DNA from: Candidatus Zhuqueibacterota bacterium
Lineage (GTDB): Bacteria > BS750m-G25
Assembly: GCA_016783505.1 (NCBI GenBank)
Contig: JADHWK010000089.1
Location: 1 to 5,260, forward strand
DNA: 5,260 bases
Reading direction: 5' to 3'
This document shows, piece after piece, positions 736-5,260 of the stretch. The first letter of the stretch is position 1. Each line of letters opens with the position of its first letter. The position numbers and the translations under genes are program-made. The notes below the pieces were generated by a model. That model worked only from the letters and a program-made list of their open reading frames with translations, was not told the DNA's origin and searched no databases.

Positions 736-756
736 TGATTTTGAAATTCAATTTCA
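736..756. promoter_or_regulatory. Fur-box-like operator upstream of the receptor gene
   Basis: Bases 742-756 form a perfect 7-1-7 inverted repeat, TGAAATT-C-AATTTCA. A second 7-1-7 repeat with one mismatch, TGATTTT-G-AAATTCA, overlaps it at 736-750, offset by six bases. This layout is that of classical Fur operators, and the half-site resembles the TGAAAAT type known from deltaproteobacteria. A fur gene lies in the same window and two close copies of the site sit before fur and feoB. Confidence 0.8.
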
Positions 757-773
757 TTGCATTTCTAAAAAAA

Positions 774-800
774 ATTATATCTGCCCCCAGCTCATCTCAA
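774..800 (-). promoter_or_regulatory. Possible sigma-70-type promoter for the receptor gene
   Basis: On the minus strand TTGAGA (800-795) and a perfect TATAAT (779-774) are separated by 15 bases, shorter than the preferred 17. The -35 box overlaps the feoB stop codon. The Fur-box-like site begins about 18 bases downstream of the -10 box, so Fur bound there could block initiation or early elongation. The short spacer keeps this tentative. Confidence 0.4.
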
Positions 801-2524
801 AGTAATAGATTGAGTATCCCTCCGACTGTCAAGGCGGAAACAATCATAATCCCCGCCGATTTTATCATATCTTTCACACCCAGTTCCTTGACCAGGACCG
901 CAAATGTGGCCACGCAGGGGAAGTACATGGCTAAAACCACGCTGGCGATTATTAGTTGATTTAAGGTCAAATCAAGGGGCAAGAGCATCCCTACGGCAAC
1001 GTCCTTGCGCAAGAATCCGATGATAAGGGCACCGACTGCCTCCCTGGGAAGCCCCAGAATTCCAGTTACAACCGGCGCCGTGAACCTGCCAATGAACTCA
1101 ATGATCCGGAGGGAATAGAGAATGTTTACAATAAGGACTCCGAGGAGGACATAAGGAACGGCCTCCTGTAGAAACCATCTGGTTCTCATCCATAATTTTT
1201 TTAATAGTGCCCTCAAATAGGGAATACGATAGGGGGGAATTTCCACGAATATCTCAGGGCTTTCCCCCTTTAAAATCAAGTTCAGCAGAATTCCAAGTAT
1301 TATCCAGACTACAAATAAAGTTCCAAAAACCAGCCCCAGCCCTTTTGTTCCATATCTGCCCACCAGTCCGATAACCATTGCCTGCAGGGCCATGCAGGGG
1401 ACCGCTATGGCCATTAAGGTTGCACTAATAAACCTTTCTCGCCTTGTTTCGAGCACCCTGGTGGCCAGAGCGCCAGGAACATTACAGCCCAATCCCAGCA
1501 TCATAGGAATAATTGCCAGCCCGTGCAGTCCTAAGCGGTGCATAATGTTATCAACAAGGACACCGAGGCGGGGAAGATAGCCCGAATCCTCTGCAAAACT
1601 TAAGACTAAATAAAAAGAAATGACATAGGGAAGAACCATGGCAATGGGGACAAAGAGCCCTGTGGTCAAGAGCCCCAGGGACTCCACAAAGTCTATCTCG
1701 CCCCCAACTAATTTCCCGATTAATATGTTGTGGACAAAACCCTGGGATCCCAGGACAAAAGAAAGCTTCATCATCAATGGCGCCCACAATCTGTCAAATA
1801 TAGGCTCAAAAATATACCCGATGAGACCCTCCCCGATGAATCTTATAATCTTAAATGCCGCATACATGGCCACCAATGCGAGGGGAATTCCCGTTAGGGG
1901 TCTTATGGAAGCATCCCCCAACCTTTCCAAAAGGGTGTGATGGCGATGGGTTACCTTCTGCACCTGGGAGATGATGTTTCCCACTTCGTGCCACCGCTCC
2001 TCATTCTGGTATTCATAAATTCCGACCTTTGCATCGGGGAGTCTGGTCACCAGGTTTTTTATCCCCTCGCCGGATATGGCGCAGGTGGGCACAACCGGCA
2101 CCCCGAGGATCTTCTCGAGTTCCTCAGTATCAATTGAAATTCCAGTATGTTTTGTCTCATCCCAGAGATTGAGAGCAACAATTACGGGAATATTTCGTTT
2201 AAGTAACTGAAGGGTAAGATTAAGATTCCGCTCAAGATTGGTAGCATCTACAATATTTATCACCAGATTTCCCTGCGAGTGCTCAGACACGGCCTCATTA
2301 AGCATTTCCACCGCCACTTCTTCAGCCTTTGAAGTCGGCTCAAGCGTATAGGTTCCTGGGACATCAATGACCTCTGCTTTTTCATCGCCGAGTCTCATGG
2401 TCCCTTTCGTAAATTCAACAGTCGTCCCTGGATAGTTAGAAGCAATGACGTGAACCCCAGTAAGCCGTGAAAAAACCACGCTTTTACCTACATTAGGATT
2501 GCCCATTAAAAGTATTTTTTTCAT
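797..2524 (-). CDS. feoB: FeoB ferrous iron transporter, compact form
   Basis: Inner-membrane Fe(II) permease with an N-terminal G domain, 575 residues. G-protein motifs are complete: G1 GNPNVGKS (8-15), G2 YPGTT (31-35), G3 DVPGTY (54-59), G4 NLWD (119-122) and G5 near SGEG (151-154). A short helical linker spans about 166-205; about 208-575 is membrane-embedded. Gate motifs: EDSGYLPR (312-319), GCNVPGALATR (346-356), FLRKDVAVGM (504-513) and PCVAT (536-540). Cysteines 347, 377 and 537 fall where FeoB gate cysteines are expected. The protein is shorter than common FeoBs of 650-800 residues, in the linker and between the gates, and carries VPCMALQAM (375-383) where SCSARLPVY-like sequence is usual. 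GGGAG precedes the ATG. It follows feoA by 79 bases and a Fur-box-like site. Fe(II) is the likely substrate from context; another divalent metal is possible. Confidence 0.95.
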   Translation of the reverse strand: MKKILLMGNPNVGKSVVFSRLTGVHVIASNYPGTTVEFTKGTMRLGDEKAEVIDVPGTYTLEPTSKAEEVAVEMLNEAVSEHSQGNLVINIVDATNLERNLNLTLQLLKRNIPVIVALNLWDETKHTGISIDTEELEKILGVPVVPTCAISGEGIKNLVTRLPDAKVGIYEYQNEERWHEVGNIISQVQKVTHRHHTLLERLGDASIRPLTGIPLALVAMYAAFKIIRFIGEGLIGYIFEPIFDRLWAPLMMKLSFVLGSQGFVHNILIGKLVGGEIDFVESLGLLTTGLFVPIAMVLPYVISFYLVLSFAEDSGYLPRLGVLVDNIMHRLGLHGLAIIPMMLGLGCNVPGALATRVLETRRERFISATLMAIAVPCMALQAMVIGLVGRYGTKGLGLVFGTLFVVWIILGILLNLILKGESPEIFVEIPPYRIPYLRALLKKLWMRTRWFLQEAVPYVLLGVLIVNILYSLRIIEFIGRFTAPVVTGILGLPREAVGALIIGFLRKDVAVGMLLPLDLTLNQLIIASVVLAMYFPCVATFAVLVKELGVKDMIKSAGIMIVSALTVGGILNLLL

Positions 2525-2542: not shown

Positions 2543-2563
2543 TGATTTTGAAATTCAGTTTCA
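2543..2563. promoter_or_regulatory. Fur-box-like operator between feoA and feoB
   Basis: Bases 2549-2563 read TGAAATT-C-AGTTTCA, a 7-1-7 inverted repeat with one mismatch. The second, overlapping repeat at 2543-2557 (TGATTTT-G-AAATTCA) is identical to the one before the receptor gene. The site ends 18 bases before the feoB start codon, so it would control feoB separately from the operon promoter upstream of fur. Confidence 0.75.
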
Positions 2564-2603: not shown

Positions 2604-2834
2604 TTATGTGTTTACCATAATTTTCCTGGCCATGCCGAAGCCCAGGGCGACCTGAGAATTGCCTACCTGTATGGTTACGGGACCACGCATAAACTGTGCA
2701 GAAACCTTCATAATCATTACCCCTGGTCTCACCCCGAGGGATTCCAGGCGCCTGCGCAGGCCGTGTCCCCCTTGAATGTTAACGATAGTTCCTGTCTCTC
2801 CCTGTCTTAGCTGGGTTAAATCAATCAAATTCAT
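2604..2834 (-). CDS. feoA: FeoA, small SH3-like partner of FeoB
   Basis: A 76-residue cytoplasmic protein of the usual FeoA length, with the family pattern: LTQLRQGETGTIVNI (6-20), a glycine turn and basic helix GGHGLRRRLESLGVRPG (22-38), the strand MIMKVSAQFMRGPVTIQV (40-57) and a C-terminal ALGFGMARKIMV (63-74). FeoA is needed for Fe(II) uptake through FeoB and is thought to bind or tune it; it has an SH3-like fold and no catalytic site. Its ATG overlaps the fur stop codon (ATGA, 2834-2831), and AGGTG within the end of fur can serve as ribosome-binding site, so translation is probably coupled to fur. feoB follows in the same direction. Confidence 0.95.
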   Translation of the reverse strand: MNLIDLTQLRQGETGTIVNIQGGHGLRRRLESLGVRPGVMIMKVSAQFMRGPVTIQVGNSQVALGFGMARKIMVNT

Positions 2835-3253
2835 TCACACCTGTTACAATATCCGTAAAGTTCCAATTTGTGATCTGTTACCCTAAAATTATGTTTCCCT
2901 GCCACTCCATTTTGCAGTTCTTCTATTCTGTCGTCTTTGAATTCCACAATTTTACCGCATTTGATGCAGATCAGGTGATCGTGGTGTTCCTCCCTGTGCA
3001 CAGGCTCGAAGCGGGTGAATCCATCCCCGAATTGACGCTCCGTCGCCAGCCCCGCCTCAACAAGTAATTTCAAGGTCCGATAGACAGTGGAGAAGCCGAT
3101 CCTGGGATCACTTTTTTGAACCCTTCGGTATAGTTCTTCGACACTAAAGTGCCTGTCCGCTTTCAGAAACAAATCTGCGACCTCATCACGCTGCTGGGTG
3201 CCCTTCAATCCCTTATCTTGAAGGTAATTTCCAAAAGTAATTTCCCTACTCAT
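2831..3253 (-). CDS. fur: Fur-family metal-dependent repressor
   Basis: A 140-residue repressor of the Fur family. The N-terminal winged helix covers about 1-85, with recognition helix FSTVYRTLKLLVEAGL (54-69). The dimerisation half carries HHDHLICIKCGKIVEF (90-105), with metal-binding His90, His91, Asp92 and His93, and two CxxC pairs, Cys96/Cys99 and Cys136/Cys139, that would hold a structural zinc as in many Fur, PerR and Zur proteins. His121 and His128 are further candidate ligands. AAGGAG seven bases before the ATG fixes the start. Sequence alone does not separate Fur from PerR or Zur, but placement at the head of a feoAB operon and three Fur-type operators favour an Fe(II)-sensing Fur. 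One operator sits at its own promoter, which implies autoregulation. Confidence 0.92.
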   Translation of the reverse strand: MSREITFGNYLQDKGLKGTQQRDEVADLFLKADRHFSVEELYRRVQKSDPRIGFSTVYRTLKLLVEAGLATERQFGDGFTRFEPVHREEHHDHLICIKCGKIVEFKDDRIEELQNGVAGKHNFRVTDHKLELYGYCNRCE

Positions 3254-3507: not shown

Positions 3508-3528
3508 TGATTTTGAATTTCATTTTCA
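3508..3528. promoter_or_regulatory. Fur-box-like operator at the fur-feoAB promoter
   Basis: Bases 3514-3528 read TGAATTT-C-ATTTTCA and the overlapping repeat at 3508-3522 reads TGATTTT-G-AATTTCA, offset by six bases. Each is a 7-1-7 inverted repeat with two mismatches, so the site is slightly weaker than the other two. It begins four bases downstream of the -10 box and covers the expected transcription start, which would let iron-loaded Fur repress its own operon. Confidence 0.75.
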
Positions 3529-3567: not shown

Positions 3568-5260
3568 TTATCGCTTTTGTACGATCCCATATTTTTTAGT
3601 CTTTCTCCATAAAGTAGTGCGGCTTATCTTAAGCTCAGCAGCGGCATTATGCCTATCCCAATTATTTTTAGTCAGAACATCCAAGAGGATCTGCTTTTCC
3701 AGCTTAGCCAGGGGAGAGGAAGATAGAGCCACCCCCTCGACGAGACTGCGGCGCTGGGCTTTTAACTCTTCGGGTAGATGGGCGGGTCGAATGACCCCTT
3801 CCCGGCAGTGGACAAAAGCGTGTTCGATGGCGTTCTCCAGTTGACGGATATTTCCCGGCCACGGATAGTCAACGAGGATGTCCATTACCTCAGGGGTTAC
3901 CGACGTTATTTTTTTACCAGTCTTTTTATTAAATTTTTCTATGAAATGCTCAACGAGAAGGGGAATGTCGTCGTTTCTTTCCCTCAATGGCGGAAGATGG
4001 ATGGGAACGACATTTAGTCGGTAGAATAGATCTTCCCTGAACCCTCCCCCTTTGACGGCCTCTTGCAGATCCCTGTTGGTGGCGGCGACCACCCGTATGT
4101 CCACCTTTATCGTTTTCGTCCCGCCCAGACGTTCAAATTCCCCTTCTTCCAGTACCCTAAGGAGTTTTAACTGCACCGGTTTGGATATGTCACCTATTTC
4201 GTCTAAGAATATGGTTCCCTTATGGGCGAGCTCAAACCTTCCAGGTTTGTCTCTGTCAGCCCCGGTAAAGGCCCCCTTTGTGTGTCCGAACAGCTCGCTC
4301 TCCAAAAGGGCCTCCGGAAGGGCAACACAGCTTACTTTTATGAAGGGTCTCTCCCGTCTGGGGGAATTGTAATGGATGGCCCTGGCTACCAAATCCTTTC
4401 CTGTGCCCGTCTCCCCTTGGACCAGAACGGTGGAGGAGGTCTCGGCCACCGCCCCTAAAAGGTCATAGAGCTTAAGCATCTTCGGGTTTTTGCCCAAAAT
4501 ATTGGCGAAACTGTATCGTTTCTTCAGTTCATCCCTCAGGTGTTTTAGGGTTGAGAGATCCCTGAAGGTTTCCACACCACCGATTATCTCACCCTCTTCA
4601 TCTATCAGAAGGGCAGTGCTCACGCTTATTTGGACCGGTTTTTCATCTTTGCTTTTAATTTCGAACTCAAGGTTGGAGATGGATTGGCCGCTTTCAAATG
4701 TCCTGCGGAGGGGGCAGGCCTCCTGGCAGACCCGGCTGCGAAAAATTTTATGGCAGGGTTTTCCGATCGCATCCTGTCTGGGAAATCCGGTTATCTCCTC
4801 TGCGGCTTTGTTGAAACTGGTTATACGCCACTGGGGATCAACGGTAAATACCCCATCGGCAACGCTCTCAACGATGGCCTGAAGCCTGTTTTTCTCCTTT
4901 ACGATTTCGGAGGTGAGGGAGTAGAGCTCGGCGATATTCCTGAAGGTTAGGATAACCCCGATGATCCCACCCCGGGGATTCTTTAAGGGAACAGCGGTTA
5001 AGCCGATGGGAATTATCTCTCCCCCAATCGTGGAAATCTCCGCCCTGAGGTTGGAGAGCCCTTGGTGGGTTTTAAGGGTCTCTCTTAAGGGGCAGTTTTT
5101 TTCGCAGAGGGTTGACTTAAATATGTCGTAGCAGTGATGGCCGCATGCATCATCGGCCCCATATCCGGTTATCCGCTCCGCCCCCCGATTGAAACTTATG
5201 ATCTGGAACTGGGCGTCAATGGCAATGACCCCATCGCCCAGGGCATCGTCGAATTCCTCA
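3568..5260 (-). CDS. Sigma-54-dependent transcriptional activator with two cysteine-bearing PAS domains (5' end beyond window)
   Basis: The frame is open from base 5259 to the TAA at 3570-3568, giving 563 visible residues; the start lies outside. Visible residues about 1-110 and 127-235 are two PAS domains (VIAIDAQFQIISFNRGAERITG; VFTVDPQWRITSFNKAAEEITG). Each carries C-x8-C-x3-C-P-L: Cys43/52/56 and Cys169/178/182. The AAA+ domain follows: Walker A GETGTGKD (282-289), GAFTGA (329-334) that contacts sigma-54, Walker B GTIFLDE (348-354) and arginine-finger region FREDLFYRLN (407-416). The end is a Fis-type helix-turn-helix (about 517-560, NNWDRHNAAAELKISRTTLWRK). All catalytic motifs are intact. 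No receiver domain is seen in the visible part, so input probably comes through the PAS domains. A GTG at 4623 is not a real start because both PAS domains lie in frame before it. The neighbouring iron operon suggests, but does not prove, iron or redox sensing. Confidence 0.92.
   Translation of the reverse strand, partial: EEFDDALGDGVIAIDAQFQIISFNRGAERITGYGADDACGHHCYDIFKSTLCEKNCPLRETLKTHQGLSNLRAEISTIGGEIIPIGLTAVPLKNPRGGIIGVILTFRNIAELYSLTSEIVKEKNRLQAIVESVADGVFTVDPQWRITSFNKAAEEITGFPRQDAIGKPCHKIFRSRVCQEACPLRRTFESGQSISNLEFEIKSKDEKPVQISVSTALLIDEEGEIIGGVETFRDLSTLKHLRDELKKRYSFANILGKNPKMLKLYDLLGAVAETSSTVLVQGETGTGKDLVARAIHYNSPRRERPFIKVSCVALPEALLESELFGHTKGAFTGADRDKPGRFELAHKGTIFLDEIGDISKPVQLKLLRVLEEGEFERLGGTKTIKVDIRVVAATNRDLQEAVKGGGFREDLFYRLNVVPIHLPPLRERNDDIPLLVEHFIEKFNKKTGKKITSVTPEVMDILVDYPWPGNIRQLENAIEHAFVHCREGVIRPAHLPEELKAQRRSLVEGVALSSSPLAKLEKQILLDVLTKNNWDRHNAAAELKISRTTLWRKTKKYGIVQKR

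Follow-up and report, generated by a model that had tools for sequence, protein, structure and literature searches.

A conserved cysteine triad in the tandem PAS domains of a sigma-54 activator and its likely role in an Fe-S redox sensor

The window analysed here, an entire 5260-base contig, encodes a sigma-54 activator with two PAS domains, each of which carries three cysteines with the spacing C-x8-C-x3-C. We consider it likely that this protein is a tandem OrpR-like Fe-S redox sensor in which one redox-labile cluster per PAS domain gates the AAA+ ring. We favour an Fe-S role because cysteine in the related PAS domains is confined to the three triad columns and is retained there in nearly all-or-none fashion, because 85 of 198 genomes from one phylum contain the motif whereas none of the 198 matches a pattern with altered spacing, because orp-type genes are common neighbours of triad activators, and because of the reported precedent of OrpR. 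PAS domains that sense through Fe-S clusters are an already known kind of sensor, of which the window activator is one instance.

Both PAS domains carry the triad

The activator gene (3568..5259, minus strand, as are all of the activator features described below) is an open frame of 563 aa with its 5' end lost at the contig end. Pfam analysis identifies Sigma54_activat (PF00158, 3.6e-70) as well as AAA_lid_14 and, in two stretches, PAS_9, and the domain order is PAS1-PAS2-AAA+-Fis HTH. The AAA+ sigma-54 interaction domain, as delimited by Pfam, spans residues 254-421 (3997..4500) and contains a GAFTGA loop at residue 329 (4258-4275), and a Fis-type helix-turn-helix (HTH_8, PF02954, 1.5e-10) occupies residues 517-557 (3589..3711); with both of these present, the protein is a sigma-54-dependent activator (bEBP). 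PAS1 (residues 6-110; 4930..5244) was located by iterated HMM and PAS2 (residues 127-236; 4552..4881) by both Pfam and iterated HMM, and the two domains share 38% aa identity.

PAS1 reads ...ITGYGADDACGHHCYDIFKSTLCEKNCPL, with C43, C52 and C56 (5092..5133) and an additional cysteine, C39 (5143..5145), and PAS2 reads ...ITGFPRQDAIGKPCHKIFRSRVCQEACPL, with C169, C178 and C182 (4714..4755). A codon check of these residues confirms the original prediction that a C-x8-C-x3-C-P-L motif stands at the same place in both PAS domains, directly after ITGY/ITGF, and with all three cysteines in register both domains have the cysteine signature of the triad PAS subfamily. Within the window's own genome the motif occurs twice in the activator and once elsewhere (C84), the latter probably being a chance match. 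The source assembly is 59.9% complete in 89 contigs, and its phylum is represented in our comparisons by this one genome alone.

An AlphaFold model of a PAS2 fragment (residues 118-247) has a mean pLDDT of 94.8, and in this model the triad is predicted to lie at the E-alpha and F-alpha helices (fragment residues 52, 61 and 65). The structure matches of the model are to general PAS folds, including those of LOV, NifL, FixL and CitA, and they report on the PAS fold only. In a PDB profile search no solved structure clearly displays the triad, a literature search for PAS domains with C-x8-C-x3-C found none in the papers covered, and a plasmid search returned only distant PAS matches, all below 30% identity.

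With LOV, FixL and NifL among the best fold matches, one may ask whether the cysteines surround a PAS pocket for flavin or haem, the domain then acting as a sensor based on that cofactor. As in LOV domains, which share the same overall fold, Cys1 comes after G-x-x on the E-alpha helix; its context G-x-x-C-x-x-[IV]-F resembles the LOV G-x-N-C-R-F-L-Q, and in an alignment by eye it falls on the reactive cysteine of LOV. We nonetheless regard this explanation as very improbable, given that the fold matches show only a PAS fold, that the PDB profile matches mostly end near the first cysteine, and that Cys1 lacks the surrounding LOV signature. The signature around the LOV reactive cysteine is GxNCRFLQ; the window segments read GKPCHKIF and GHHCYDIF, and LOV membership was rejected on this basis. 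LOV domains further differ from the triad PAS domains in having a single reactive, flavin-binding cysteine, and Cys2 and Cys3 are not known to have a counterpart in LOV sequences, which also counts against a flavin or haem pocket.

Conservation and distribution of the triad

A scan with the tandem PAS domains across 84,980 species genomes yielded 80 named loci, and an iterated HMM search of the frames from these loci yielded 151 homologous PAS domains. Of the six peptide probes used in the scan, two contained Cys1 and none contained Cys2 or Cys3, so the scan somewhat favours Cys1 and not the other two cysteines. Cysteine is found at the three triad columns in 56%, 61% and 54% of the 151 domains, and in 0-1% at the columns around them, save for 7% at position 185. 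The triad is nearly all-or-none, with all three cysteines in 63 of the 151 domains.

Of 28 genomes of relatives, 23 contain a match to the DNA pattern of the motif, as do 85 of the 198 drawn from the Trichlorobacter thiogenes phylum (Desulfobacterota-type), whereas a spacing control in which Cys2 is moved by one residue (C-x9-C-x3-C) matches none of the same 198, and the reversed motif pattern, used as a control for the same search, gives no match. None of 200 genomes from the phylum to which a Sedimenticola genome belongs matches the motif pattern, the phylum of each genome set having been taken from its named locus. A chance origin of the motif is ruled out by the spacing control and the reversed patterns. 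The earlier suggestion that retention in both copies implies selection is strongly supported by this family-wide conservation, and the distribution of the triad is biased to anaerobe-rich groups.

Nearly all triad PAS domains are followed by a sigma-54 AAA+ domain, and in a tree of the AAA+ domains the triad label is strongly clustered, requiring 8 changes versus 38.9 when shuffled. The window activator lies at the base of the main triad group with modest support (92/77), and its nearest relative in both PAS2 (59%) and the AAA+ domain (62%) is that of L126. Geobacteraceae-type loci (L020-L023) have two triads per protein and L016, L018 and L019 have four, such that the Trichlorobacter/Geobacteraceae (L020-L024) and Desulfobulbaceae-type (L016, L018) activators resemble the window's tandem in placing 2-4 triad PAS domains before the AAA+ domain. 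L022 has genes for c7 cytochrome, TPR and polyphosphate kinase proteins nearby, and L016 has orp-type genes, unlike the fur and feo neighbourhood of the window. Near the four-PAS triad activators of L016 and L018 there are also short proteins with one triad PAS domain and a Fis-type HTH and no AAA+ domain (L016:13483-14079, minus strand; L018 near 13893-14282, minus strand).

GAFTDA is the commonest loop among the triad activators compared (36 of 75, versus 3 of 49 non-triad activators), and in many of the L096-L195 triad activators it replaces GAFTGA in the sigma-54 contact loop; the window activator has GAFTGA.

Residues that accompany the triad

We aligned 84 triad domains chosen by the motif (alignment A1), so that the invariance of the cysteines and of a Phe in this alignment is by construction. 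Glu230, in the last strand of PAS2 (4570..4572), had no part in this selection and is present in 83 of the 84 domains, the sole exception being PAS1 of the window, which has Leu; Gly is the commonest residue at this position in PAS domains lacking any triad cysteine. PAS1 is also alone among the 84 in having a cysteine at the C39 position. What is new here is a glutamate on the last strand that tracks the triad and, among the 84 domains, is missing from the window's PAS1 alone, the domain with an extra cysteine.

In a broader set of domains, Cys185 is found in none of 50 triads with the glutamate versus 9 of 13 triads without it (Fisher p 3e-8), with the caveat that the nine are largely of one AAA+ tree clade and may reflect a single event, in which case this p value is overstated. 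These C-x8-C-x3-C-x2-C triads, with a fourth cysteine and no strand Glu, are at L059, L063, L068, L071, L077, L079, L081, L085 and L086, which are mostly of Kiritimatiellota, Lentisphaerota and Desulfobacterota. Within the main triad group, a conserved fourth cysteine was looked for and rejected, the extra cysteines being scattered. Because Cys185 replaces the glutamate in one set of triads, and because the Glu-less PAS1 has C39, the sequences suggest that the fourth ligand of a putative cluster can be either Glu or Cys. The rule is not strict, since a Nitrospirota PAS variant keeps the glutamate with another cysteine layout. This variant is found in sigma-54 activators of Nitrospirota loci within L043-L076 and has five cysteines (GKSC-x7-C ... 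SCDLF-x5-C-x3-C) together with the strand Glu; it may be another Fe-S-type PAS domain.

A more elaborate version of the Fe-S reading, which we hold to be tentative and rather doubtful, is that PAS1 has a four-Cys cluster (C39/C43/C52/C56) and PAS2 a cluster bound by three Cys and Glu230, making the protein a two-threshold sensor of redox state or Fe-S supply; triad PAS domains would then generally have a carboxylate-ligated [4Fe-4S] cluster, exchanged for an all-Cys site in another clade.

Neighbouring genes

The window also encodes a Fur-family regulator (2831..3253, minus strand; PF01475, 5.5e-40), FeoA (2604..2834, minus strand; PF04023) and FeoB (797..2524, minus strand; TIGR00437 above cut-off). 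There are five Fur-box-like sites in the window where 0.2 are expected. In three intergenic regions, before fur, feoB and a TonB-dependent-receptor-type gene, there are Fur-box-like palindromes: upstream of fur and downstream of the activator gene (3514..3528; one mismatch to TGAAAWTNAWTTTCA), upstream of feoB (2549..2563; one mismatch) and upstream of the receptor-type gene (742..756; no mismatches). Because Fur-box-like palindromes stand before all three genes, Fur control of feo is plausible.

From this neighbourhood an iron-sensing role for the activator had been proposed, which our comparisons leave unsupported: fur, feoA and feoB were sought beside 180 relatives' loci (E<=1e-4) and found beside none, so that the Fur-family gene is not conserved there, and no sigma-54 promoter above chance is present near fur/feo in the window. 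Probably the activator forms a unit of its own and adjoins feo by position only. These observations also bear on a reading in which the triad is a site for Zn(II) or some other single metal, either structural or directly sensing, and with its Feo neighbour would sense Fe(II). Three cysteines and a carboxylate are a possible zinc or iron site, and the gene adjoins Fur, FeoA and FeoB with their Fur-box-like sites; we nevertheless find a single-metal site quite unlikely in view of the relatives' lack of adjoining fur/feo genes, the lack of a sigma-54 promoter above chance in the window, and the skew of the distribution to anaerobe-rich groups.

A different set of genes recurs beside the relatives. 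Of the 53 triad loci of at least 8 kb, 27 have orp-type genes (PF02579) nearby, compared with 4 of the 46 non-triad ones; the loci come from different phyla, and the control is therefore unmatched. L182 encodes PF02579 proteins, NifU_N, DnaJ and two Fer4-Mrp ATPases, Fer4-Mrp ATPases are also encoded at L016, and L164 encodes NuoF- and FlpD-type proteins. Multihaem c7-type cytochromes are present at L022 and L016. The wider locus of the nearest relative (L156, the same place as L126) has three ORP and two Mrp genes. There are no orp genes on the window contig, which is cut 5' of the activator; the orp and Mrp genes of this genome are on a separate contig (C74), where the orp cluster has no sigma-54 promoter above chance. 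On that contig (L201:3123-11874), PF02579 orp-type, Mrp/Fer4 ATPase, DUF169 and a second Fur-family gene (10714-11154) are grouped, with a perfect Fur-box-like site (10681-10695) adjoining the second Fur gene and no triad activator nearby.

Relationship to known sensors

The closest studied system appears to be that of Desulfovibrio vulgaris Hildenborough. Its activator DVU2106 has been named OrpR, and was reportedly described in Molecular Microbiology in about 2021 as a [4Fe-4S] PAS redox sensor. OrpR is likely a studied member of the triad activator family, a placement that takes its triad from synteny and from its loop. Like the window protein it is a one-component sigma-54 activator of an anaerobic host, and it regulates genes of the Fe-S type; relatives of the window protein adjoin orp-type genes. 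The window protein is unlike OrpR in carrying a pair of triad PAS domains, in its loop (GAFTGA, against GAFTDA in OrpR) and in its fur/feo neighbourhood. The D. vulgaris orp operons are activated by DVU2106 with sigma-54 (PMC3897727), the loop of DVU2106 is GAFTDA (PMC4641369), and most ORP proteins are predicted to bind metal, several of them as Fe-S proteins (PMC6345978).

The original prediction drew a parallel with other cysteine-bearing PAS sensors. The PAS domain of NreB has four cysteines at a spacing other than C-x8-C-x3-C. The window activator differs from it in having three cysteines in PAS2 and an AAA+/HTH output rather than a histidine kinase. In NreB of staphylococci, a PAS histidine kinase, the PAS cysteines bind an O2-labile [4Fe-4S] cluster (PMC4601167).

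A set of three cysteines is equally compatible with zinc binding or with disulfide formation, and a metal-free switch can be envisaged in which two of the triad cysteines, such as the C-x3-C pair, oxidise reversibly and alter PAS dimerisation or the AAA+ ring. ArcB offers a precedent for redox sensing through a cysteine pair within a PAS domain (PMC11620690), and the strictly conserved cysteines here are three, not four. All three are retained together, however, rather than as a pair; the neighbours encode Fe-S assembly and Fe-S electron-transfer proteins; and the glutamate accompanies the triad and gives way to a fourth cysteine in another clade, which suits a metal site. As the reported precedent of OrpR also points away from it, we judge such a thiol or disulfide switch to be unlikely.

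A model for the activator and its family

The proposal of cysteine-ligated cluster or redox sensing in these domains is well supported by the family-wide conservation, the restriction to anaerobe-rich groups and the Fe-S and redox neighbours, and from the sequences we infer the presence of a cluster, its type, its fourth ligand and the direction of switching. The activator would be a cytoplasmic one-component sigma-54 activator in which each PAS domain holds an oxygen- or redox-labile Fe-S cluster, probably [4Fe-4S]. The cluster would be bound by the conserved cysteine triad in the E-alpha/F-alpha region and by a fourth ligand, for which the candidates are Glu230 of the last strand in PAS2 and Cys39 in PAS1, which has Leu at the position of the glutamate. 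In the reducing, anoxic state, with clusters in place, the PAS pair would permit the AAA+ ring to engage sigma-54 and putative target genes would be on; upon oxidation the cluster would be damaged or altered and these genes would be turned off, as reported for OrpR.

A motif seen in raw sequence is thus tied to a large and mostly unstudied family of anaerobe sigma-54 activators, many of which may read redox state through Fe-S clusters in their PAS domains. The signature of C-x8-C-x3-C plus the strand glutamate offers a simple finder for such sensors and a concrete hypothesis for their ligands.
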